Assembly: GCA_902774155.1 (NCBI GenBank)
Contig: CACYHF010000020.1
Coordinates: 1 to 50,581 of the forward strand
DNA: 50,581 nucleotides
Direction of reading: 5' to 3'
From: an uncultured Bacteroidia bacterium
GTDB taxonomy: Bacteria; Bacteroidota; Bacteroidia; Bacteroidales; UBA932
Shown here: positions 280 through 16,011 of the stretch, in pieces
Position numbering within the stretch: the first letter of the stretch is position 1
Layout of the letters: each line of letters starts with the position of its first letter
Notes under the pieces: generated by a model
Seen by the model: only the letters and a program-made list of their open reading frames with translations
What the model was told of the DNA's origin: nothing
Database searches by the model: none
Position numbers and translations under genes: made by a program

Positions 280-2982
280 ATGATCATGAGCAGCATTTAC
301 GAGAGTTTTTACAACAACTTCATAGCCGAAGACCGGTACAGGATGGTTCTGGACGGTCTTCAGGTGACGCTCCTTATCACAGTATGCGCCGCTGTCCTGG
401 GTACCTTGCTGGGCGGACTGGTGTGTTGGATGCGCATGAGCCGTCACTCATGGCTGCAGAAAGTGGCCAAAGTGTATATAGACATCATGCGGGGAACGCC
501 CGTGCTGGTGCTGCTCATGCTCATGTACTACGTGGTCATGGCGCCGATGGATGCCACCGGAATCGTGGTTGCCATCGTCACCTTCGGCATGAATACGGCG
601 GCCTATATCGGCGAGATGCTGCGCTCTTCCATCCAGGGCATAGACCGGGGACAGACAGAAGCCGGTCTTGCCCTGGGGTTCACGCAGCGGCAGACTTTCA
701 TCAAGATTGTGCTGCCCCAGGTGATCAAGGCGGTGATGCCCGTCTATCAGGGCGAGGTGATCAGCCTGCTCAAGGGCACCAGTATCGTGGGCTACATTGC
801 CGTGGCCGATATGACCCGCGCGTCGGACCTCATCCGCTCCCGCACCTTCGATGCCTTCTTCCCCATCATCGTGACAGCCATCATTTATTTCTTTATGGCC
901 TGGCTCATCGGCCGTTTGCTCAAGTCGCTGGTAGAAAAGCGGCATCTGAGGGTCCTGGCGGCCGCTGCGGGCTTGTTGACAGGCGCAACCGTGTGCTATG
1001 TCCCGGAACTGTTCTCCTCTCCTGAGAAGGCCGAAGTGGCCGATGTTCCCGCCGTTTTCCAAGCCTTGGCCGGAAAAGACGTGGGCGTAATTATCGGCAG
1101 CATCCAGGACATCGCCGTTACCGATATGGCTCCGGACGCCCATATTCAGCGAATGGCCACCGACACAGACCTGATAGCGGCGCTGGAGGCCGGAAAGGTG
1201 GACATTGCGGGCGGCGAAAGCCTCACCCTTGTCTTCAACAAAGATCTCGCCGCCAGGCTGGATTCCGTCAGCGCCGGCCTCCCAGCCATTCCGGTAGGCG
1301 CCTGCTTCCCGCTGGACGGCACTGAGCTGCAACAGGACTTCAACGCCTTCCTCTCCGAAATCCGACGCGACGGTACTTATCAGAAGATTATGGACCGGTG
1401 GGCCCAGGCCGATGATCCCTCCTCGCTGGCCGTTCCCCAGCCTCGCGGCAACGGACGCACCATCCGCGTGGCGGCTTTCCCGTCCATGCCTCCGCTCAAC
1501 TTCATCTGTAACGGAAAGCCGTCGGGTCTGGAACCGGACCTGCTCACGGAATGGGCCAACCGGAGGGGCTGGAAGCTGGAATACCTCATAATGGACTTTG
1601 CTGCGCAGATTCCGGCCATCCAGACGGGCAAGGCCGATCTGGCCATGGGCTATATCAGCATCACCGACGAGCGCAAGAAGACGGTTCTTTTCTCCGACGG
1701 CTATATCGCGTCGGAAATGATCCTGATTACGCGGAAAGGGGAGTTGGGTATCCTTACGGAACCCTCCCGGCCCCAGTCCCCGCCGCATCAGGACGGTAAA
1801 TGGTGGCCGTGGGCCCTGGCAGCCCTCCTGGTCCTGGGCCTCGGCGTGTGGGTGATCCTTCGCCGCAGGGCGCTTGCCAAGATGGAGGCCCGCTTCCTGT
1901 CTTCAAAGCAGCCCGACGACGCCCCCGTCATCCGCATCTCCCACCTGAAAAAGAGCTATGATGCCTTGGAGGTGCTCAAGGACATCAATGCCGATGTTCA
2001 CCGCGGAGAGGTAATCTCCATTATCGGCCCTTCAGGAACGGGTAAGAGTACGCTGTTGCGCTGTCTGAATCTGTTGGATCATCCCACCGGCGGCAGCATC
2101 TATGTAGATGGAAAGAACATCCTGGCCAAGGGCTATCCCGTCCATCTGATGCGCCAGAAGATGGGGATGGTGTTCCAGAGCTTCAACCTCTTCGCGCATA
2201 AGACCGTGCTGGAAAACGTGATGATGGCGCCCGTCCAGTTGCTGGGAGAAACTCCGGAAAAGGCGCGTGAGGAAGGTCTTCTGCTGCTTCGCAAGGTAGG
2301 ACTGGCCGAGAAAGCCGATGTCTATCCTTCGAGCCTCTCCGGCGGTCAGAAACAGCGCGTGGCCATTGCCCGCGCCCTGGCCATGAAGCCTGAAGTCATC
2401 CTCTTCGACGAGCCTACATCGGCCCTGGATCCCACTATGGTGGGTGAGGTGCTCAGCGTCATCCGCCAGCTGGCCGACGAAGGCATGACTATGCTCATCG
2501 TCACCCACGAGATGAAGTTTGCCTTCGACGTCAGTACGCGTATCTTCTTCATGTACGGCGGGTTTATCCACGAGGACGGAACGCCTAAGCAGATTTTTGA
2601 GGAGCCTGTTCACAGCGCCACCAAGGCTTTCATCCAGCGCATCCGCAAGGAGGTATTCGAGATTGACGGCCCCGACTTCGACTACCTGGGCATGCGCTCC
2701 ACCATCAATGCCTTCTGCTACAAATATGGTATCATGGACAAGCGGCCGGCTGTGCGGAAACTGACGGAGAAGATGTTGGATGATGTGATGGACGCTTACC
2801 GCCCCATGACCGTCCGTATCACTCACAGCGAACAGTCAGGCATTACTTCCCTGGACTTCATGGTGGAGAAAATGCAAGCTACGCCACTGAGTGAACAGCA
2901 GCGTAGCGAACTCTCCGGTCTATGTAAAGGAGTTGTGGAAGAGCCCACTGAAAGGGGCTTCCGCGTGAAACTGATAATCTAA
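280..2982 (+). CDS. Single-chain polar amino-acid ABC transporter: permease, binding domain and ATPase fused
   Basis: 900 residues that hold a whole importer. Residues 1-220 are a HisM/GlnP-type permease with the EAA loop at about 127-147. A hydrophobic segment at 223-243 is followed by a substrate-binding (SBP_bac_3) region at 255-490, a second membrane segment at 508-527 with Arg residues after it, and a GlnQ-type ATPase at 549-790 (Walker A GPSGTGKS 583-590, Q-loop Q633, LSGGQ 686-690, Walker B ending D710-E711, H743). The layout puts the binding domain outside and the ATPase inside. The binding region is in unusual order: the second-lobe half with the usual C-terminal end DGTYQKIMDRW (364-374) comes first, and the normal N-terminal half (395-490) follows. 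Residues 795-900 form an extra domain that I do not recognise. An alternative ATG lies at 286. Substrate is probably a polar amino acid, by family only. Confidence 0.88.
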   Translation: MIMSSIYESFYNNFIAEDRYRMVLDGLQVTLLITVCAAVLGTLLGGLVCWMRMSRHSWLQKVAKVYIDIMRGTPVLVLLMLMYYVVMAPMDATGIVVAIVTFGMNTAAYIGEMLRSSIQGIDRGQTEAGLALGFTQRQTFIKIVLPQVIKAVMPVYQGEVISLLKGTSIVGYIAVADMTRASDLIRSRTFDAFFPIIVTAIIYFFMAWLIGRLLKSLVEKRHLRVLAAAAGLLTGATVCYVPELFSSPEKAEVADVPAVFQALAGKDVGVIIGSIQDIAVTDMAPDAHIQRMATDTDLIAALEAGKVDIAGGESLTLVFNKDLAARLDSVSAGLPAIPVGACFPLDGTELQQDFNAFLSEIRRDGTYQKIMDRWAQADDPSSLAVPQPRGNGRTIRVAAFPSMPPLNFICNGKPSGLEPDLLTEWANRRGWKLEYLIMDFAAQIPAIQTGKADLAMGYISITDERKKTVLFSDGYIASEMILITRKGELGILTEPSRPQSPPHQDGKWWPWALAALLVLGLGVWVILRRRALAKMEARFLSSKQPDDAPVIRISHLKKSYDALEVLKDINADVHRGEVISIIGPSGTGKSTLLRCLNLLDHPTGGSIYVDGKNILAKGYPVHLMRQKMGMVFQSFNLFAHKTVLENVMMAPVQLLGETPEKAREEGLLLLRKVGLAEKADVYPSSLSGGQKQRVAIARALAMKPEVILFDEPTSALDPTMVGEVLSVIRQLADEGMTMLIVTHEMKFAFDVSTRIFFMYGGFIHEDGTPKQIFEEPVHSATKAFIQRIRKEVFEIDGPDFDYLGMRSTINAFCYKYGIMDKRPAVRKLTEKMLDDVMDAYRPMTVRITHSEQSGITSLDFMVEKMQATPLSEQQRSELSGLCKGVVEEPTERGFRVKLII

Positions 2983-4227
2983 TTATTTTTTGATTACCTG
3001 GCCCAGCCAATAGAGCAGGGCGGCAACCGCCATACCGTTGATGGCGGGGAAGCCCCAGTGTACCAGGTTGGCCACCACGGCACCTGCAATCACACCGGCT
3101 ACGGCCCACCAGTTTACCTGTTGGAGCGGAGTAGACATGAAATCCTTCTTGTTGGAGAAATAGCTGATAATCAGGATGATGCCAACGGGCGGAAGGGTGC
3201 AGTTGAGGATGTTGAGCCAGCCGCAGAAGTTCCAGTAAAGCCATACGGCTGCCACGGTTCCGATGAGTCCGGAGACAATGACCATGCTCTTCTTGGACCA
3301 GCCGGTAATGTTGGCCAGGCCCAGACCGGCCGTATAGAGGGCGTTGTCGTTGGTGGTCCAGATATTGAGTCCCAGCACCAGGACGGCCAGGTAGAAGAGG
3401 TTCAGGTTCAGCATCACCTCAAAGATGTCGTTTCCACCGGCGTAGATGCTGGAGACGGCGCCGAAGAGGAACATCAGGCTGTTGCCGATGAAAAAAGCCA
3501 CGATGGTGGTGATCAGGCCCACTTTCCCGTTTTTGGCGAAGCGTGTGAAGTTGGGCGTGGCCGTACCGCCGGAGACGAAGCTACCCACCACCAGTCCGGC
3601 GCCGGCGATGATACCCAGATTCTTGGTGCCCAGGGAGAACTGCTCAATGAGACCCAGGTCGCCGCGATGGACGGCGATAATCATGGCGGCCGTACCCAGG
3701 ATGGCCACTGCCGGAACGGCGATATAACTTACGATGGTGAGGCTCTTGATGCCGAAATAGGCGCTGGAGGTCATCAGGATACCTGCAATGGCCACCAGGA
3801 GATAGCCCTGCCAAGGCATCGAGTCAGGAGTAACTTCCAGGCCGAGAAACTCCTTAGCCACGGGGATGGCGAACATGGCAAGACCTACGCCGAACCAGCC
3901 GATCTGCGTGAAGCTGATCATGGCACTGGGCAGGTAACTGCCTTTGATGCCGAAACTGCGGTGGCTCAGCAGATCCAGGGAGAGTCCCGTCTTGGCGCCG
4001 ATGTAACCCAGCGCTCCGGTATAGGCGGCGAGGATCAGGCCGCCCAGGATAACAGCCCATACAAATCCGCCGAAATCCAGCCCGGCGGCCAGTTGCTGGC
4101 CCACCCACATGCTGGCCGAGAAGAAGGTGAAGCCCAGCATGAGCATAAACATGCTCAGCGTTGATTTACGTCCTGCGGCGTCTACCGGACGCGAGGTGTA
4201 ATCAAAGTCGTTCGTTTTGTTTGTCAT
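2983..4227 (-). CDS. codB: Cytosine/purine permease, CodB-like (NCS1 family)
   Basis: 414 residues, close to the usual size of CodB, with about 12 hydrophobic segments. The N-terminal part has the NCS1 features of the cytosine permease group, including the GYIGAKTGLSLDLLSHRSFG stretch near residues 73-92. The family imports nucleobases across the inner membrane with a cation. The gene lies 7 bases after a uracil-phosphoribosyltransferase-like gene, which fits nucleobase uptake followed by conversion to a nucleotide. No cytosine deaminase gene is nearby, so the base carried is uncertain. Its stop codon directly abuts the stop codon of the convergent ABC transporter gene. Confidence 0.85.
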   Translation of the reverse strand: MTNKTNDFDYTSRPVDAAGRKSTLSMFMLMLGFTFFSASMWVGQQLAAGLDFGGFVWAVILGGLILAAYTGALGYIGAKTGLSLDLLSHRSFGIKGSYLPSAMISFTQIGWFGVGLAMFAIPVAKEFLGLEVTPDSMPWQGYLLVAIAGILMTSSAYFGIKSLTIVSYIAVPAVAILGTAAMIIAVHRGDLGLIEQFSLGTKNLGIIAGAGLVVGSFVSGGTATPNFTRFAKNGKVGLITTIVAFFIGNSLMFLFGAVSSIYAGGNDIFEVMLNLNLFYLAVLVLGLNIWTTNDNALYTAGLGLANITGWSKKSMVIVSGLIGTVAAVWLYWNFCGWLNILNCTLPPVGIILIISYFSNKKDFMSTPLQQVNWWAVAGVIAGAVVANLVHWGFPAINGMAVAALLYWLGQVIKK

Positions 4228-7475: not shown

Positions 7476-10220
7476 TTAGTTTGCTTGGGTAGAACCTGTC
7501 AGGAAGGTGTAATCTGCATCCCAAGATTTGGAGTACAGGGTGGAAGGGGAGATGGAAACGATATGAAGGCTCTTGGCCAAGGTGGCATTTCCATAAGGAT
7601 TGAAGCCCCCTGGATTCACCATGGTTGCGGTGACCATGGTGTGGTCTATCGAATCAAAAGCCCATTGATTCCCGAGATTGTCGGTGGCGATAAGGGGTGC
7701 ATACTGCGCTTCCGGCGGTATAATCTCGGAAGCCTCTGCATAATAGGTGCAGCTGGTTGTGGTGAAGGAAGACCCGCTCTCGTAGCGCAAACCGATGGTA
7801 ATGGTCCATGCGACAGGTTCGAAGACGATATCTACATCCTGGTGCAAGGTGCCGGTATGCATATCGGTATACACCTGGAATCTGATGGTGTAGTGGCTCA
7901 TGTCGTGCCACCGGCAGCTCTTTTCGGAGGTGATGGTAAAATTATTCCCCGATTTCGAGACGTTGGCATAACTACCTCCGCTGATCCAACTGTAACTGAT
8001 TGAGGCCGAAACAGGGCTTCCATTCTTTCTGAGCGTGGCGGTAAGGCTTATGGATGAAGTTCTGACGGCCGATGTGGAACCGGTTACAACCATCTCATAA
8101 GCGTCCCAGATATCCAGACTGGCGTTTTCATAGGTGTCGGCACTGTATTTACTCTTGATCGTGGCCGATCCGGAAGATACGGCGGTAAGAGTATTGCCCG
8201 AAATGGAGAGATGGCTTCCCCCGGAAATGGCGGTGAATCCGCTGCTGGTTACATCGTTCTGGTATGTCCAGCTGGCACCTCCGTCAGAAGAACGGTATAG
8301 CAGGGCCGTGGCGCTGGACGTATTGCCCACGTAGAGTTCGGAGGAGGAGACCGTCGTTACTACCTTGTATAGATAGGTGGGTGCCACGGCGTTAAACAGG
8401 ATGTCGTGTGTGTCGGATTCTCCACTGTAGGAAGCGCTGATATGGGCCGTACCGGGCGTAGAGGAAGTGACCGTTCCCTTGTTGGCCCCGGTAGTGTTGT
8501 TCACGGAACCAACCCCAGTGCAACTCCAGGAGCAGTTCCAATAGTGCGTCACGTTCGTTCCACTGTCGGAAATGCCGTTAGTGACGGTATAGTACGTTGC
8601 GGTCAAAGGCACGTTCTCTCCCACATCGGCCGATGTGGCGCCGCTGATGGAAAGACTGTGCTCCACATAGTCCTTGGCCGTGCAGCTGTCGGTGTCCGAG
8701 CTACCTTGGTAAGTGGCACGGAAGGTGGCTGTCCCGGCGCCTGTGGCCGTTACATAGCCCGAACTGCTCACGGAAAGCTTTCCGGATCCGCTGATGCGGC
8801 TCCAGGTAGCACTGGACGTGACATCCGTACCACTGTCGGTTACTCCATCGACAGTGGTATAATAGGTTGCCGTGAGCTGGCAGCCTCCACCGTTATACCA
8901 AAAGAACGTATCGCCGCCCGATACCACCAGGCTGTGGGTTTCCACCGTGGTGTGTCCTTCTTGTGAACAACGCAGATAATCCTCTGCTCCGCTTACCGGA
9001 TCATACAGATAAATCTGGACGCTGCGAGCGGCAGAGGAAGAATTGGCGCTGTCCCAATATACCCAGACCGTAGCGCCGTCGTTCCCGTACGTGAAGTCGG
9101 AAGAGGTGCAGTTCTTCAGGTTGGCAGCATAGGAGGAAAAGCCGGAGGTAGGACCGGTATGGCTGTAGGAAGCCGTAACGCTTACCCGCTTGCCATAGCC
9201 CACATAATCGGTATCCGACCCGTTAAACTGCCAGGGATAGATGCTGATGGAGCCCGCTACGTCCACGTCTGCAGCCCGTTTCCAATCGTAGTCCATCAGG
9301 TTTTCTTCGTGGTAAGTGATGGTCCAGTTGTACACCTGATTCCGCAGGATATTGAAATCCGTAGTCTGGTTGGCGCCCAGGTAGGAACGATAGACCACAC
9401 TGCCGGTATATTGGCCGCTAGTGGAGACATCAACTTCCAGGTAGCTGGCGTAATCACGAATGGAAGAAAGGGAACTGTTGCTATAAGTTTTCTGCCAGGA
9501 AGATGAGACGCTTCCTACGGTTCCCTGGGCGTTTTCCGGTACGTAGAAAACCGCCGACAGGGTGGCTGCAGTGCCCGTTACTGCTCCGTGGATGTCCTGG
9601 AGGGTAGGGAGATTGGTACTGCTGGCTGGCGACACTCCAAAAGGAGCTACCGTGGGATTTACGTTTTTCACGGTGGCCGATGTTATGACCGCCCCGGACC
9701 AGTCACAGGACAAGGAAACATTGATTTTGGCCAGCAACCGTTGCAGGTGCACCGTAATGCCCTGTCCTTCGGCGAAGGCCTGCCCGCTTACTTGCCCGGC
9801 CATGGGGATGCCGGTGCTGGCCATCGACGGATAGTCCACCGTAAAGGTCAAGGACGATAGCGTCCCGTCAGAAACGGCGGCAGCCAGGGCCGAACGTTGA
9901 TCGCCCATATTCGCCAATGCGTATACATTGTAGGTCCGGTCGGCGCGGAGCGTCACATCAATGGCGTTGAAACCTCCCGTCAGGTAACCTAAATAGGCCT
10001 GCGTTCCATTGGCCTCAAAAATGCCCAAGGTGACGTTACTGATTCTGGTTTCAATGTCGGCTGCCGTCAGATAACTCTTCGTGCCGTGGTGTCCGATGCT
10101 ATCCATAGCTTCTGGCTGGCCGATCTGCAGGCTTAACCTGATCATCTCCGGTTGGGTTTCCCGCGTGCAACAGCACGCGAGAAACCATCCCGTCAACAAA
10201 ATACAAACAATCCTTCTCAT
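7476..10220 (-). CDS. DUF4906-like fimbrial tip/adhesin lipoprotein with Ig-like repeats
   Basis: 914 residues. The signal peptide ends in FLACCC with the lipid Cys around 16-18. Residues about 25-330 look like a fimbrillin-type domain of the DUF4906 group (note LRADRTYNVYALANMGD at 91-107). Four Ig-like (Big_2-type) beta modules follow at about 428-513, 521-606, 616-702 and 707-800, with repeated phrases such as QLTATYYTTVDGVTDSGTDV and LTATYYTVTNGISDSGTNV. The rest is Ser/Thr-rich. In type V pili a large protein of this sort is usually a minor tip subunit. The gene starts one base after the stop of the second fimbrillin gene, which supports a role in the same pilus. Ligand is unknown. Confidence 0.75.
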   Translation of the reverse strand: MRRIVCILLTGWFLACCCTRETQPEMIRLSLQIGQPEAMDSIGHHGTKSYLTAADIETRISNVTLGIFEANGTQAYLGYLTGGFNAIDVTLRADRTYNVYALANMGDQRSALAAAVSDGTLSSLTFTVDYPSMASTGIPMAGQVSGQAFAEGQGITVHLQRLLAKINVSLSCDWSGAVITSATVKNVNPTVAPFGVSPASSTNLPTLQDIHGAVTGTAATLSAVFYVPENAQGTVGSVSSSWQKTYSNSSLSSIRDYASYLEVDVSTSGQYTGSVVYRSYLGANQTTDFNILRNQVYNWTITYHEENLMDYDWKRAADVDVAGSISIYPWQFNGSDTDYVGYGKRVSVTASYSHTGPTSGFSSYAANLKNCTSSDFTYGNDGATVWVYWDSANSSSAARSVQIYLYDPVSGAEDYLRCSQEGHTTVETHSLVVSGGDTFFWYNGGGCQLTATYYTTVDGVTDSGTDVTSSATWSRISGSGKLSVSSSGYVTATGAGTATFRATYQGSSDTDSCTAKDYVEHSLSISGATSADVGENVPLTATYYTVTNGISDSGTNVTHYWNCSWSCTGVGSVNNTTGANKGTVTSSTPGTAHISASYSGESDTHDILFNAVAPTYLYKVVTTVSSSELYVGNTSSATALLYRSSDGGASWTYQNDVTSSGFTAISGGSHLSISGNTLTAVSSGSATIKSKYSADTYENASLDIWDAYEMVVTGSTSAVRTSSISLTATLRKNGSPVSASISYSWISGGSYANVSKSGNNFTITSEKSCRWHDMSHYTIRFQVYTDMHTGTLHQDVDIVFEPVAWTITIGLRYESGSSFTTTSCTYYAEASEIIPPEAQYAPLIATDNLGNQWAFDSIDHTMVTATMVNPGGFNPYGNATLAKSLHIVSISPSTLYSKSWDADYTFLTGSTQAN

Positions 10221-10221
10221 A

Positions 10222-11100
10222 CTAAGAATCTTCCTGCGCTGTGTGTGAATTACCCCAAGGGGCGATATCTACGGACAAAACCAGCTGGGTCAGGCTTCCG
10301 GCCACGGCCGTGCCCGAGATGTGATGGATCCTCCCTTCCTGCAGGGTTACATCGGCCTGGGCTTCCTTCACCTGTGTCTGTCCGTTCATGGAAAGCGTGT
10401 ACCGGCATAGGAGCGTGTAGGTGCCCGGAATCAGATAGAGGTCGCTGCCGGAAGTGACGGGTGTGGCCGATCCCAGTCCGCTGCATCCGCTCCAGCTGCC
10501 GTTAGTCAGGTTATAGGTGCCTGCGGTGCCGAAAGGCTGCGTCTTTCCCTGCAGTGACCAACTGATGCCACTGATGGTGTACCCTGCCGGTGGTTCCAGC
10601 GTGAGGGTTCCCAGGCGGGCGAAGATGTGACGGAGCGTCACGGAGGGCGTGCTTATACTGCTGTCGAAAACCCGGCCAGCCACGATATCCGTCGTGTTCA
10701 AGGCGCTGAGTGTGGTGGTGCTTCCAAGGGTGAAATCCACGTTGGCGACATAGTAGTTGCGGCTTCCCGGTGCCTCCGCATCTATATACCGCCCGGTGGA
10801 GACAACACCATCGGCTGGCGTGGCCGACAGGGCTCCGTTCGCGCCCGCACACCAATTGACCACTTCGGCTGAACTACCTTCCGCATCTCCTCCCGTTGTA
10901 GTTCCCCAAAAGACGGTGCTGAGCTGCGTGACCGCGCTGGTTTTGGTGGATGGGTCCTGCCACAGATACAGTTTCACTTCCTCCGACTTTTCAGGTACGG
11001 GTGTAGGAGAGGGCGGGGCAGGGCAGTCCTTCCTGCATCCCGTAGGCAGGAGCAGGAAGGCTGCGAATAAGAAAGAAGGGGGTAATAGGTAGAAAGACAT
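10222..11100 (-). CDS. Fimbrillin-family lipoprotein (second subunit)
   Basis: 292 residues with a lipoprotein signal peptide ending in LPTGC (Cys 22), followed by a Pro-rich linker. The body shares phrases with the neighbouring fimbrillin: SVTLRHIFARLGTLTLEPPA here and FTFRHIFAQVGTVTMKAPAG there, then a D(L)WL/LYLIPGTYTL segment and a terminal VDIAPW. This is the pattern of FimA/Mfa1-type subunits built from two transthyretin-like domains. It lies between the main fimbrillin gene (16 bases upstream) and the tip/adhesin gene (1 base downstream), so it is probably an accessory or adaptor subunit of the same pilus. It is shorter and its C-terminal strand differs, so a minor subunit is more likely than a second shaft subunit. 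Confidence 0.75.
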   Translation of the reverse strand: MSFYLLPPSFLFAAFLLLPTGCRKDCPAPPSPTPVPEKSEEVKLYLWQDPSTKTSAVTQLSTVFWGTTTGGDAEGSSAEVVNWCAGANGALSATPADGVVSTGRYIDAEAPGSRNYYVANVDFTLGSTTTLSALNTTDIVAGRVFDSSISTPSVTLRHIFARLGTLTLEPPAGYTISGISWSLQGKTQPFGTAGTYNLTNGSWSGCSGLGSATPVTSGSDLYLIPGTYTLLCRYTLSMNGQTQVKEAQADVTLQEGRIHHISGTAVAGSLTQLVLSVDIAPWGNSHTAQEDS

Positions 11101-11116
11101 AGCTGGCGGGTCTGTA

Positions 11117-12037
11117 TTAATTCTTTTCCGTAAAGGAGGTTGCTACGTTCTTGTCGCTCCAGGGAGTGATCGTTACCGTAAAAATGATTTCCTGGATATC
11201 ATTCGGCTCCGGAATGTTGGCCGCGTCACCATTCAAGCCGATATTGTTGTTATATCCTTGGGCTAGATTCACCGTAGCCGAAGCGGTTTTCGATCTGCTG
11301 TAATTTCCTTTTGAAATGGTATAGGTTGCCGTAAGCGTATAACTGCCCGGTAAAAGCCAAAGGTCGTGGTCGTCACTTGTTTGCGATACCCCTCCTTCCA
11401 GATCTACACCGGCAGATTCAGTACCGAAGAGATATACATCATTATTGACGGCATCTCCGGCATTCCAGGTATTCGTGTCCAGGTAATACTTTCCCTGTTG
11501 GATGGGCCGGAAGCGGAGCTTAAGGTTCGAAACTGTAAAGCCGGCAGGTGCTTTCATAGTAACCGTCCCTACCTGGGCAAAGATGTGTCGGAAGGTAAAG
11601 GCATTCTCTTGCCGGAAAGTGGACGAGGACAGATAGGCCGTTATCACGTCCGTATTGGTATTTTGAACCGAAACGGAGGGATGGCTTTCTCCATCATTCA
11701 AGTTCACGTTTGATGCGGCAAAAGAATAATAAGGATCGCTTGCAGGCCAGTACTGGCCGCCCCGCCATTTATTATCCGTTCCTTTGGTGAATACGACATT
11801 TTGGAAGGCGTATTTAGTACCCGACTTGGCCGATATGTAAATGGTCTCCAAGTTACTGGCATCCACCTGGGTAGTTGCTTTGGTGTCTGGGTCAGAATCT
11901 GAGGCCACAGTCAGGCCGAAGGTGATTTCACGGGCAGGGGACGGTTCCATCACGGGAGTGGAATCAAGCGCTTTTTCACAGGCTGTCGCAAGGCTGGCTC
12001 CAACCAGTGCGAGCAAAAGTAAAGTTTTGGTTTTCAT
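11117..12037 (-). CDS. Major fimbrillin, FimA/Mfa1-like lipoprotein
   Basis: 306 residues with a lipoprotein signal peptide ending in LATAC (Cys 20). Family features are the HIFAQVGTVTMKAPAG block in the middle, the LWLLPGSYTLTATYTI strand and the closing VTITPWSD. In known type V pili such subunits are exported as lipoproteins, trimmed by a surface protease and polymerised by strand exchange. I see no certain Arg cleavage site near the N-terminus, although Arg and Lys residues occur between 35 and 55. The gene follows the Mfa2-like anchor gene by 21 bases and precedes a second fimbrillin. It is probably the shaft subunit on the basis of order and size. Confidence 0.8.
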   Translation of the reverse strand: MKTKTLLLLALVGASLATACEKALDSTPVMEPSPAREITFGLTVASDSDPDTKATTQVDASNLETIYISAKSGTKYAFQNVVFTKGTDNKWRGGQYWPASDPYYSFAASNVNLNDGESHPSVSVQNTNTDVITAYLSSSTFRQENAFTFRHIFAQVGTVTMKAPAGFTVSNLKLRFRPIQQGKYYLDTNTWNAGDAVNNDVYLFGTESAGVDLEGGVSQTSDDHDLWLLPGSYTLTATYTISKGNYSRSKTASATVNLAQGYNNNIGLNGDAANIPEPNDIQEIIFTVTITPWSDKNVATSFTEKN

Positions 12038-12058
12038 TTGTTTAATGGTTTATGATAA

Positions 12059-12925
12059 TTAAATGGAATGGTTCCAATGATTCAGGTGTACTACTTCCGT
12101 TTCCCATTCTTGTACTTGGATGGAATAGTTCACCAGCACCCGTCCCTCCAGGGTCAGGTGGATGTGGCAGTCGTTCAGGATAGACTGGGACCAGTCGTAT
12201 CCGCGCAAGGTGGCCATTTCTCCCAAAGGCAGGCGTTGGAAAGCCACCCACTCACCAGTATCGTCGTCTTGAGTGAGCAAATCCAGCAGGAGGGAACCGG
12301 CATAGATCGTGACCCCGGAAGGGGTTGCCTGCCGGGGAATGCGTACGGCATATGAAAGCGGGCCGATTTCCCGGGCCTGGGCCCGATAAGGCCCTTCGTG
12401 GAGCAGAAGGTGGGGTAGGGAATAACCGTCCACGTCGCCGGAAACCTGCAGCTGAAGGGGAATGTCCTTCTCCAGGATCTCTACTTCGAAGTAGAAAGTC
12501 GCGTAGAGACTTTGGAGGGGGATTTCCACCACATATTGTTCGGCATCTTCCGTCTGTGCCTGTGCGCAACCCGCAAGGCTTTCCGGACATTCCTGTGTTA
12601 GGGGAATCAGCAGGCTGTTTTCTTTGTTGGAAAGTGTTTCGGACCAATTGCTCACACAGGTTACTTCCAGTGAGGAATTCTTCGTCCAGGCGAAAGAGAC
12701 GCCCTCCGTGCAGAAGGTCCCGGTTTGGGCTACCTGTCGCTGGAGCCAATCTGCATCAGGGTTCATCATCCGGAAGCTGAAGTAGGGCCACAGTTGTTCG
12801 TCTACCATCCTGTCGGCCTTTACCTGAATCCAGGCGGGACATTCGGAACGTTCTTCCATAATTAGGGAACGACAGGATGCGAGACTAAGTATCAGCAAGG
12901 CGTATGTCAGTTTTTTCGTTTTCAT
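12059..12925 (-). CDS. FimB/Mfa2-family fimbrial anchor lipoprotein
   Basis: 288 residues with a lipoprotein signal peptide ending in LASC (Cys 18), followed soon by ERSECPAWIQV, the Cys-containing start typical of the FimB/Mfa2 family. The family anchors the pilus base in the outer membrane and limits its length. The C-terminal part is beta-rich (ILNDCHIHLTLEGRVLVNYSIQVQEW region). Its start overlaps the stop of the OmpA-like gene by 4 bases (ATGA), which implies translational coupling, and the main fimbrillin gene follows 21 bases later, the usual order for these loci. Confidence 0.8.
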   Translation of the reverse strand: MKTKKLTYALLILSLASCRSLIMEERSECPAWIQVKADRMVDEQLWPYFSFRMMNPDADWLQRQVAQTGTFCTEGVSFAWTKNSSLEVTCVSNWSETLSNKENSLLIPLTQECPESLAGCAQAQTEDAEQYVVEIPLQSLYATFYFEVEILEKDIPLQLQVSGDVDGYSLPHLLLHEGPYRAQAREIGPLSYAVRIPRQATPSGVTIYAGSLLLDLLTQDDDTGEWVAFQRLPLGEMATLRGYDWSQSILNDCHIHLTLEGRVLVNYSIQVQEWETEVVHLNHWNHSI

Positions 12926-14913
12926 TGTACAGGTTCAAACGGATCTTCCTCGCGGTTGAGGCCATAACGTTGGATGAGGATATAGATTTCCGGGTCCAGG
13001 TTGCCCCGGAAGATGAAGGAGCGGTCGGCGCGGCAGGCATCCAAGTAGCATTGGACGGCCCGTTCGTCGTCGTTGTGACGGGCATACAGGACCGCCAGCA
13101 TATAATTGACGGCCGGGGTACGATCCAGCTCCTGGAGGATGGACATAGCCGATGCATTGTAGTCCAGTGAAATGCAGGCAATGGCCGTGTTGTAGTCCCG
13201 ATAGGGGCGCAGACACTCCAGGGCTTTCTCGTATTCACGTTCCTTCAAGAGTGCGATGCCCCGCATATAGGTGCTGTCCAGTTCAGTAGTGTGTACGGTG
13301 TCCTTTATCATACCTTTGCGGTGCAGGAAGAAATCGAATTTCACGGTTCGCAGGCGCGGGTACAGTTTCTCACGCAGATGGCGGTAGAAAGGCTCTTTCT
13401 GCAAGGCCGATTCCCGCTGGTCCAAATCGCTGATTTCCAAATGTTTCAGATAGGTGTATTTGTCCTTGGGGGAGAGGGTGCTGTCCTGGTCCACCAGGAG
13501 GGAGAGCAGTTCCCAGTTCTCTCCGTTGGAACGGGAGCGGAATTGGATATCCGGTATGCCCAGTTGCCCCACGCGTTCGCGCCCGTCCGCCCCTACGGTA
13601 AGCGTAAACCCGCTGCGCCGTACGGAGTCGCGATAATGGCGGATATCCTTCTCAAAGTAGGCCGCTACTGCGGCGGCGCGCTGGGTCGATAGGGCGTTGT
13701 TATGGGCCAGTGTCCCCTCTGGGGAAGCCGATGCGGCGATAACAATGGAATCTAAGTCAAAGTTCTGGTTTTCAAGTACTTCTAAAATGTTCCCCCGGAT
13801 GCGGGAGAGCTCTTCCTGGTTGTAGCCCAGATTGGCTTTGACTTCGGCCTTCCCTTGTTCGAATTCCACGTAGCAGGCAGTGTTGGCAGCCGCCCGGCGC
13901 TCCACAATACGGGTCATATACCGTTCGCTGGGATCCAGCAGGGTAGACATAGAACTGATATAGAACGATAATGGTTCTGTCCTTTCCATTTCGTATAGTT
14001 TACGGTCACTTTCATAGATGTCGCCGCCCAGGACGATATCCACCTTGCGCAGTTTCGGGCGTGTGGCGATGCTTTGGGTATAGGCGTACACGAAGTCCCC
14101 GTTCAAGCTCCGCAGGACGGTGTCCAGCCGGATGCCTTCTGTTTCGATGGGCGCACGGACGTATTTGTGGTACATAAGTTCCTTTCTGCTCTTTCGGCGT
14201 TCATTGAGCCGATAGAGCAACCAGTGGGTGTAGTGCTCTACCGCCTGTTTTTCCGTGACACCGTAGTAGCTGGCAAATTGCTCGTCGCTTACGTAGGAAG
14301 TGTCGTTTTTGAAGTAATAGATTTCGGGCAGGTTCCGTTCCAGGAAGATTTCCAGGTTTCTGAGGTCGATAAAACGGGTGCTGTCCGTAATGATGCTGGC
14401 AAGGAAGCGTTCATACTGTTCATATCCCCGGAGCTGCCGTTTCCGGTAGTCTTCTCCGGTGATATAGACCGATTCCAGCTGCAGGCTGTCACCCAGGATA
14501 TACATCTGGGGACGGAATCGAAGCTGCCAACGGGAATCCTGCATGGAGGCCGGGACGATGATTTCAAAGCGCAAGTCCACCCGGCCATGCCTTTCAGCCA
14601 CATTCCGGAAACGGGCGGTGATGACGGCGGCGTCAATCACGTCGTGCGCTACCATCTCACCGGAGGACTCGTCTTTCACGGCCTTCATAATGAGCATTTC
14701 CTTTCCGGTATCGTCCTTGACCGTTATGGTGTCGCGATGGGAAACCGCGATGACCTTGCGCTCCTCCTGGATTTCGTTACGGGACAGGGCGAGGGTGGCT
14801 GCCAGTTCTTTCTGGCGAACCGCCTCGATCTTCCGCATGGGCCCGCAAGCCGGGAGGAACGCGATGGCCACCGCCACGGCGGCTAACACAAAGACAGGGT
14901 CTGCTTGTTTCAT
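12922..14913 (-). CDS. OmpA-like lipoprotein with TPR-like tail, fimbrial locus
   Basis: 663 residues. A lipoprotein signal peptide ends in LPAC (Cys 23). Residues 345-420 are an OmpA-C-like peptidoglycan-binding region (SIVIAASASPEG, then STQRAAAVAAYF). Residues 545-640 look like TPR-type helical repeats (YEKALECLRPYRDYNTAIAC and following). The region 50-340 is not recognised. Proteins of this type stand next to DUF3575 proteins at the head of Bacteroidales fimbrial operons, where they are thought to link the assembly site to the cell wall. It lies 10 bases after the DUF3575 gene and overlaps the Mfa2-like gene by 4 bases. The exact role is inferred from context. Confidence 0.7.
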   Translation of the reverse strand: MKQADPVFVLAAVAVAIAFLPACGPMRKIEAVRQKELAATLALSRNEIQEERKVIAVSHRDTITVKDDTGKEMLIMKAVKDESSGEMVAHDVIDAAVITARFRNVAERHGRVDLRFEIIVPASMQDSRWQLRFRPQMYILGDSLQLESVYITGEDYRKRQLRGYEQYERFLASIITDSTRFIDLRNLEIFLERNLPEIYYFKNDTSYVSDEQFASYYGVTEKQAVEHYTHWLLYRLNERRKSRKELMYHKYVRAPIETEGIRLDTVLRSLNGDFVYAYTQSIATRPKLRKVDIVLGGDIYESDRKLYEMERTEPLSFYISSMSTLLDPSERYMTRIVERRAAANTACYVEFEQGKAEVKANLGYNQEELSRIRGNILEVLENQNFDLDSIVIAASASPEGTLAHNNALSTQRAAAVAAYFEKDIRHYRDSVRRSGFTLTVGADGRERVGQLGIPDIQFRSRSNGENWELLSLLVDQDSTLSPKDKYTYLKHLEISDLDQRESALQKEPFYRHLREKLYPRLRTVKFDFFLHRKGMIKDTVHTTELDSTYMRGIALLKEREYEKALECLRPYRDYNTAIACISLDYNASAMSILQELDRTPAVNYMLAVLYARHNDDERAVQCYLDACRADRSFIFRGNLDPEIYILIQRYGLNREEDPFEPVQ

Positions 14914-14923
14914 TTCCTTCTCT

Positions 14924-15487
14924 TCAGAATATCAGTTGGATAGCCAGCCGTGCGTCGGGAAGGATAAACAGTTTGGATCCTTGCTCCAGCGTGTTGCCGC
15001 AGGTAGGGCAGGAGTACACGGTGTATTTTTTCCATCCACCCCATGCACCTACACCTATATCCAGGTTCCAGTGCTCTGAGAGCATCATGGAATATCCACC
15101 CCACAAGCGTCCTCCATAGGTGTCGGCTTCTTCTGTTTCGCGACTCCAGATTCCTCCTACGTTATACACCCGGTATTGGACGTCCATCCCGGCCCACCAT
15201 CCGGAATAGACGTGCCAGGGCCACCAGCGGACTCCGCCCCAAACGTTCAGTTGCCGGGCCTGCATCTGCTTCTCGGCATCCTGCCGAAGGTAAGTCCAGG
15301 GATTTAGGCCGGCACCGGCGTGCAGGGATGCGTGCCGACCCACTGCGATGGAAGCATCGGCATTGACGGCTCCCAGGCTTAACCAACCGATACCGTCCGT
15401 CCCAACACTGTAACGTTGGGCGGCGGCGGGCCAGCTGACGGCCAAGGCCAGCAAAAGGGCCAAAAGTGTGTTCCCGACGGTTTTCAT
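14924..15487 (-). CDS. DUF3575 outer-membrane protein of fimbrial locus
   Basis: 187 residues. The ATG at 15487 is chosen because it begins a normal signal peptide (about 24 residues, ending in AAAQ); the frame is open further upstream but that would run across ssb. The mature part has the DUF3575 pattern: TDGIGWLSLGAVNADASIAV, then GAGLNPWTY, and many aromatic residues with alternating strands, consistent with a small outer-membrane beta-barrel. A pair of Cys residues (CPTC) sits near the C-terminal end. The gene follows ssb by 2 bases and precedes the OmpA-like lipoprotein, forming the usual DUF3575/OmpA head of a type V pilus operon. Confidence 0.75.
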   Translation of the reverse strand: MKTVGNTLLALLLALAVSWPAAAQRYSVGTDGIGWLSLGAVNADASIAVGRHASLHAGAGLNPWTYLRQDAEKQMQARQLNVWGGVRWWPWHVYSGWWAGMDVQYRVYNVGGIWSRETEEADTYGGRLWGGYSMMLSEHWNLDIGVGAWGGWKKYTVYSCPTCGNTLEQGSKLFILPDARLAIQLIF

Positions 15488-15489
15488 AA

Positions 15490-15852
15490 TTACCAGTCTC
15501 TTTGGGGTTGCATAGGTTCCTCTTCGCGCGGAACCAGTTTCACTTTCCGCGCAACGATTTCGGTGGTGTAGCGCTCTTCTCCGTTCTGGGTTGTGTATTT
15601 GCGGTTGCGCAGGCGGCCGGTCACTTCCACCCATACGCCTTTCTGGAGGGCATAGATATCGTCTACGCCATCTCTTCCGTGCCAGGCCGATACATTGAAC
15701 CAGGTGGATTCGATGATGGAGTTGCCCTCCCGGTCCACGGTGCTGTAGTCGGTGACCACGGAGAAATTGCAAACCTGGTTCTGGCTGGAAAAAGTGACGA
15801 CTTCGGCCTTTCCCACCACGCCGCGCAACTGTATTCTGTTTAAAAATTCCAT
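15490..15852 (-). CDS. ssb: Single-stranded DNA-binding protein
   Basis: 120 residues with an OB-fold SSB pattern from residue 1 to about 105: MEFLNRIQLRGVVG, FSVVTDY, WFNVSAWHGR, VWVEVTGRLRNRKY, then YTTEIVARKVKLVP. The acidic tail is short (PREEEP) and ends in QPQRDW rather than the usual DDxPF, so the SSB partner-binding tip looks altered. The ATG at 15852 is chosen because the SSB fold begins there; the frame is open upstream. The stop is 2 bases from the DUF3575 start, so ssb appears to lead the fimbrial operon. It could be a second, specialised SSB rather than the main one of the cell. Confidence 0.85.
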   Translation of the reverse strand: MEFLNRIQLRGVVGKAEVVTFSSQNQVCNFSVVTDYSTVDREGNSIIESTWFNVSAWHGRDGVDDIYALQKGVWVEVTGRLRNRKYTTQNGEERYTTEIVARKVKLVPREEEPMQPQRDW

Positions 15853-16011
15853 GACTATGTTTTTGGAAATTGAACTGTGGGCCGGCCTGGCGGTGCGCGC
15901 TGTGCCGCTCCGACCCGGATGCAAAGTAAGGGTGCAGAAGTGGGAAAGGCCCATAAAAAATGGCCCTCAGGTGCATTTATTCGTGTTTTTTATGAAAAAA
16001 CGCGCTTTCTT

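Follow-up and report, generated by a model that had tools for sequence, protein, structure and literature searches.

Can a substrate-binding domain whose two halves stand in inverted order be a genuine circular permutant, and what kind of transporter would carry it? The question is raised by a contig of an uncultured Bacteroidia bacterium (GenBank assembly GCA_902774155.1, contig CACYHF010000020.1; the whole stretch analysed, 50,581 nucleotides, is referred to as the window). An initial annotation, made from the sequence alone, had placed permease, binding domain and ATPase of an ATP-binding cassette (ABC) importer in one chain of 900 residues. This composition is borne out by a single open reading frame (ORF; 280-2982, plus strand) with an in-frame stop directly upstream, although the annotation overlooked a C-terminal RsbW-like domain, and its end at 2661 omits the last 106 residues. 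Along the chain follow the permease (T), an extra membrane helix (TM6), the binding domain with its C-half (C) ahead of its N-half (N), a second extra helix (TM7), the ATPase (A) and a C-terminal extension (E), an order abbreviated as T-C-N-A-E. With a probability of about 0.84, we read the product as a one-gene type I amino-acid ABC importer, working as a homodimer, with a permuted family-3 binding domain that folds in cis, and born by fusion.

Inverted order and predicted fold of the binding domain

In Pfam, the chain matched BPD_transp_1 at residues 41-212 (73.7 bits against a cut-off of 26.4), SBP_bac_3 in two stretches (PF00497, 104.1 bits against a curated cut-off of 26.4), and ABC_tran at 566-714. 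Taken alone, residues 240-387 matched positions 36-131 of the 132-position SBP_bac_3 profile (E 1.1e-7) and residues 388-517 matched positions 1-94 (E 8.5e-23). The first half of the domain is the profile end and the second half is the profile start; the normal order, with the beginning of lobe 1 first, is not that of the window. The same exchange is seen on comparison with AncQR (PDB 4zv1, 233 aa), whose chain is covered almost wholly by two swapped pieces, of which the late one corresponds to 11-108 and the early one to 113-230. Both alignments agree with the inversion proposed initially and with its lobe assignment. The quoted motifs also lie where they had been placed, LAGKDVGVIIGS beginning at residue 263, DGTYQKIMDRW ending at 374, IRVAAFPSMPPLNF beginning at 395 and ITRKGEL ending at 489.

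As controls, E. coli GlnH, HisJ, ArgT, ArtI, ArtJ and TcyJ were examined with our own half-profiles, and all six show the normal order. Thirty PF00497 loci contained 31 open frames with a half-profile match: 20 normal, 6 with the first half only and 5 permuted. The top match of a PDB profile search was the tandem SBD1-SBD2 structure of GlnPQ. Among the best 60 of 489 PDB sequences, relatives are mostly amino-acid binders, and no solved permuted family-3 protein was found, only the tandem proteins 6h30 and 4q0c matching across the C-N junction.

AlphaFold predicts the binding domain as one compact domain (predicted local distance difference test score, pLDDT, 95; predicted template modelling score, pTM, 0.89), in agreement with the earlier proposal that the two halves make one complete fold. 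The connector is ordered in this model (pLDDT >90), and its length varies little in the family (median 19, standard deviation 2.2, range 5-30 in 188 C-N pairs). With VIA-align, OpuAC came out as the best structural match, its alignment following the sequence order across almost all of the domain. Two separate incomplete domains are disfavoured by the compact model and by the existence of stand-alone permuted proteins. Coordinates of all parts are collected in Table 1.

Table 1. Features of the one-chain importer; positions are those of the window
Feature	Position	Strand	Basis
Whole ORF, one-chain ABC importer, 900 aa, stop included	280..2982	+	relatives with matching architecture
Permease (T), polar amino-acid type	304..921	+	BPD_transp_1 E 2.1e-20; own profile, residues 9-214
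EAA-like loop of the permease, presumed	658-720		EAA-like motif
TM6, extra membrane helix, Cys kept, cleavage motif degenerate	946..1002	+	hydropathy 1.65; 23 distinct fused linkers compared
C-half of binding domain (lobe 2 and last part of lobe 1), placed first	1057..1404	+	SBP_bac_3 positions 36-131; 4zv1 113-230; bounds from own profile
C-to-N connector, 18 residues, closing the permuted domain	1405..1458	+	gap in 188 C-N pairs; pLDDT >90 in model
N-half of binding domain, placed second, with carboxylate-binding Arg465	1459..1740	+	SBP_bac_3 positions 1-94; Arg conservation
TM7, extra membrane helix, presumably outside to inside, then RRR	1804..1860	+	hydropathy 2.12
ATPase (A)	1927..2649	+	ABC_tran E 3.3e-35; TcyN/GlnQ class
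ATPase motifs: Walker A; LSGGQ; Walker B; H-loop	2026-2052; 2335-2349; 2395-2427; 2500-2514	+	motif strings present
C-terminal domain (E) with a predicted GHKL fold of the RsbW/SpoIIAB kind; N-box Asn not conserved in the family	2650..2979	+	

The best NCBIfam rows for the ATPase are TcyN, GlnQ, EhuA and HisP, each under its equivalog cut-off. In its own genome the chain has 21 further matches, every one restricted to the ATPase part.

The permuted family and the origin of the fused chain

For comparison, we built profiles for the C-half, N-half, permease, ATPase and C-terminal extension. Three genome samples were screened, all counts including the window's own genome: among 344 genomes from the order, 22 matched alignment A1; among 300 from the genus, 97 matched the first 512 residues of the window's chain; and among 296 from the phylum, 49 gave a match. 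To these were added 80 named contigs, the best 80 of 544. The permuted binding domain marks a family spread over several phyla. Within these best 80, most of the closest named records belong to Bacteroidales, many of them of rumen or gut origin, and others include Chlorobium, Azonexus hydrophilus, Pelotomaculum, Akkermansia, a Mediterraneibacter and Candidatus Formimonas warabiya, the last with a complete genome. The initial annotation had named homologues of normal order, with a misread in this gene, as the case against itself; instead, relatives with the permuted order occur in many genomes. The permutation is real, yet it is a feature of a large family and not special to this protein.

The architectures found include C-N-T, C-N-C-N-T, C-N-C-N-C-N-T, stand-alone C-N, and one-chain T-C-N-A-E. 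Stand-alone C-N frames are 258-326 aa long and often adjoin separate T and A-E genes. Of 127 distinct upstream stretches, 98 have a lipoprotein-like motif within 60 residues before the first C-half, 67 by the strict and 31 by the relaxed form of a loose pattern; recognisable variants account for part of the 29 misses, and locus ends truncate a few stretches. Variants of these arrangements were also seen. In two fused chains (L168, L169) the permease is followed by two permuted binding domains in succession and then by the ATPase (T-C-N-C-N-A), and a chain of Candidatus Mediterraneibacter merdavium (L126 4737-7610) has the order C-N-T-A, with a 120-residue tail that is not matched by the RsbW-like profile and is similar by eye. 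Stand-alone permuted binding proteins at L145 3365-4159 (G091) and L146 2941-3765 (G362) have no family permease or ATPase in the fetched 7 kb.

The one-chain importer is a rare fused form of this widespread transporter family. One match spanning permease to binding domain occurs in 22 of the 300 genus genomes, counting that of the window, and each of these 22 has the ATPase downstream in the same frame; two further genus genomes (G010, G023) are cut by contig ends. The order T-C-N-A-E was also found in one genome of another family (L142). Fused permeases form a single clade (24 of 171 sequences, support 0.91), with stand-alone permeases of L128, L059 and L051 as sisters (0.84). ATPases of fused chains fall into two clades, with 15 and 7 of 149 sequences, and the ATPase part was therefore exchanged or separately acquired in one group.

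At the junction between permease and binding domain, a lipoprotein signal is apparently intact in one subgroup (e.g. L165, L166, L168-L171), as judged by the lipoprotein motif rule. In the window's subgroup the junction Cys is mostly retained, while the preceding residues no longer fit the motif; of the 23 distinct fused linkers overall, 20 still have the Cys. Such a relic or intact lipoprotein-like signal points to gene fusion, and TM6 is probably the relic of a lipoprotein signal turned membrane helix. Comparison thus supports a history in which a free-standing permease gene, a permuted lipoprotein gene and an ATPase gene would have joined, TM6 being the former signal. In one fused relative (L012, G023), the C-half ends early, with about 32 residues and thereby the last helix missing in frame; the deletion is near a contig end and may be an assembly effect. 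At L015 762-1463 (G019), a shortened permease, 74% identical to the window's, adjoins an intact two-gene system and looks like a decayed fused gene.

Ligand, proposed mechanism and rival explanations

The carboxylate-binding Arg, Arg465 in the window, is present in 208 of 209 distinct permuted units (the remaining one is gapped) and in 20 of 25 normal units. We assume that it corresponds to Arg75 of GlnBP and that residue roles follow GlnBP and HisJ. At the amino-group position, 147 of the 209 units have Asp, 18 have Glu and 44 another residue; the 26 distinct fused units have Glu 15 times, Asp 10 times and Gly once. Given the Arg conservation and these amino-group residues, an amino acid or a close analogue is the likely ligand. 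Gene neighbourhoods gave no operon clue, as no non-importer neighbour cluster had more than five members in 20 fetched contexts, several of them short, and the window. One relative (L010) adjoins a glutamate-dehydrogenase-like frame, named by eye. In the window, the stop codon of the importer abuts that of a convergent cytosine/purine permease gene (2983-4227). Farther on, a minus-strand gene run with DUF4906 and DUF3575 matches (7476-15976) is possibly a surface-fibre cluster.

Basic residues are located upstream of TM6 and downstream of TM7, and by the positive-inside rule the binding domain would lie outside and the ATPase inside. The topology suggested initially is consistent with this, there being a membrane helix on either side and basic residues on the expected cytoplasmic flanks. 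Because the predicted topology tethers both ends, the binding domain should be unable to leave the permease, as had been proposed; in some fused relatives, however, the apparently intact lipoprotein cleavage motif means that chains might be cut.

On the chain of 6h30, the permutation cut falls near position 98-99. According to PMC8025302, SBD1 has its small lobe at residues 114-206, and with an offset of approximately 25 between the two numberings, which we infer, the cut would be about 10 residues into lobe 2. Lobe 2 would therefore be the exit point of both tethers, as it is in glutamate receptors. In the proposed mechanism, the importer would work as a homodimer of the 900-residue chain, each circularly permuted outer domain folding within its own chain. 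This domain would catch an amino acid, close and deliver it to the permease, and the ATPase would power import. The natural cut would sit at the start of lobe 2, just beyond the first hinge strand, so that TM6 and TM7 would both exit lobe 2 and not the usual lobe-1 end.

Several observations weigh against this reading. Foldseek alone puts the phosphate-binding protein 4h1x slightly above OpuAC, and its template modelling scores are modest (0.32-0.54 in the 50 rows listed). A simple hydropathy scan of the permease recovered three helices where five are expected. The question of a single origin of the permutation was put to a FastTree phylogeny of 72 permuted units, left from 243 after clustering and removal of gappy sequences, and 20 normal ones (5 of 25 removed for gaps). 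The two orders are not cleanly separated in it: 11 of the 20 normal-order units form one clade (0.99), and the other 9 are placed on a long branch among permuted units. The 44 units mentioned have neither Asp nor Glu at the amino-group position, and in the window's clade this position is mostly Glu; the ligand may therefore not be an ordinary alpha-amino acid. Finally, the AlphaFold model is a monomer, compatible with exchange of halves between two chains.

Such an exchange is the strongest rival, although distinctly improbable. Importers of the type I amino-acid kind are dimers, and a dimer would hold two copies of each half, so the C-half of one chain could pair with the N-half of the other, giving shared binding sites and no single permuted domain; tandem C-N-C-N relatives could likewise pair in more than one manner. 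Against this, a lone chain is modelled as a compact domain with an ordered connector, connector length is tight, and free-standing permuted proteins exist.

The second rival concerns the C-terminal domain. Structural search with its predicted model recognised an RsbW/SpoIIAB fold, and a degenerate domain of this kind ends 164 of 176 linked ATPase frames, 11 of the other 12 being cut (examples are window 2650-2979, L009, L054 and L039). Of 14 members, just 2 were matched to HATPase_c_2 by Pfam, with 0.067 as the best E value, and profile searching of the PDB with this domain gave nothing useful. In the phylum sample it occurs in 32 of 296 genomes, exactly those with permuted systems, which points to a regulatory input as its possible role. 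The whole protein might then be a sensor that relays ligand occupancy to a signalling partner, and not a working importer. We regard this as less probable still: ATPase motifs and the permease loop are present, and a regulatory tail is compatible with transport. Moreover, the N-box Asn by which RsbW-type kinases bind ATP is not among the eight commonest residues of its column (78 rows), a column located from helix 2 of the window's domain and the N-box motif. An assembly or reading artefact joining unrelated pieces, to which the ORF start only 280 bases from the contig end lends little support, can practically be dismissed since the fused order recurs in the 22 genus genomes, with the ATPase in frame, and in one genome of another family.

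Comparison with known systems

The literature searched, which mostly excluded subscription journals, contained no report, judged from listings and passages, of a permuted family-3 binding domain, nor of an importer with every component in one chain. Nature has here tried out different tether sites for a binding domain, which may stand alone, come in runs of one to three, or be anchored on both sides. Furthermore, the one-gene importer is a compact target for structural and single-molecule work, because all its parts are covalently linked. More tentatively, these proteins could represent an undescribed class of amino-acid importers in several phyla, marked by two connected innovations, a binding domain cut at the site that holds the channel helices in ionotropic glutamate receptors and an ATPase whose anti-sigma-kinase domain is dead. 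Both tethers of the one-chain form might then pull on lobe 2, and flytrap closure might pass mechanically to permease and ATPase in the manner of a glutamate receptor, with no loose binding protein having to dock.

Natural permutation among binding proteins is already known from OpuAC, a betaine binder reported to be permuted relative to ProX proteins (PMC2395249), and the amino-acid family adds to it. OpuAC of Bacillus subtilis (PDB 2b4l), a kind of protein that holds betaine in a tryptophan prism, is the best sequential structural match to the modelled window domain. For OpuA of Lactococcus lactis, a signal-anchor helix and a short linker are described as connecting the domain with the permease (PMC2861598, PMC11065425). 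There the betaine-binding domain is attached at one end only and the ATPase is a separate subunit with CBS domains, whereas the window's domain is attached at both ends and its ATPase is fused. In GlnPQ of lactic acid bacteria, the permease carries a tandem of amino-acid binding domains (PMC8025302). In contrast to T-C-N-A-E, these have the normal N-C order, precede the permease, and are served by a separate ATPase, GlnQ. The anti-sigma factors RsbW, SpoIIAB and UsfX are similar in fold to the window's tail, which differs in its fusion to an ABC ATPase and in not keeping the N-box Asn. Lastly, GluR0 and ionotropic glutamate receptors have binding domains in unpermuted order, and they are ion channels, not ATP-driven transporters.
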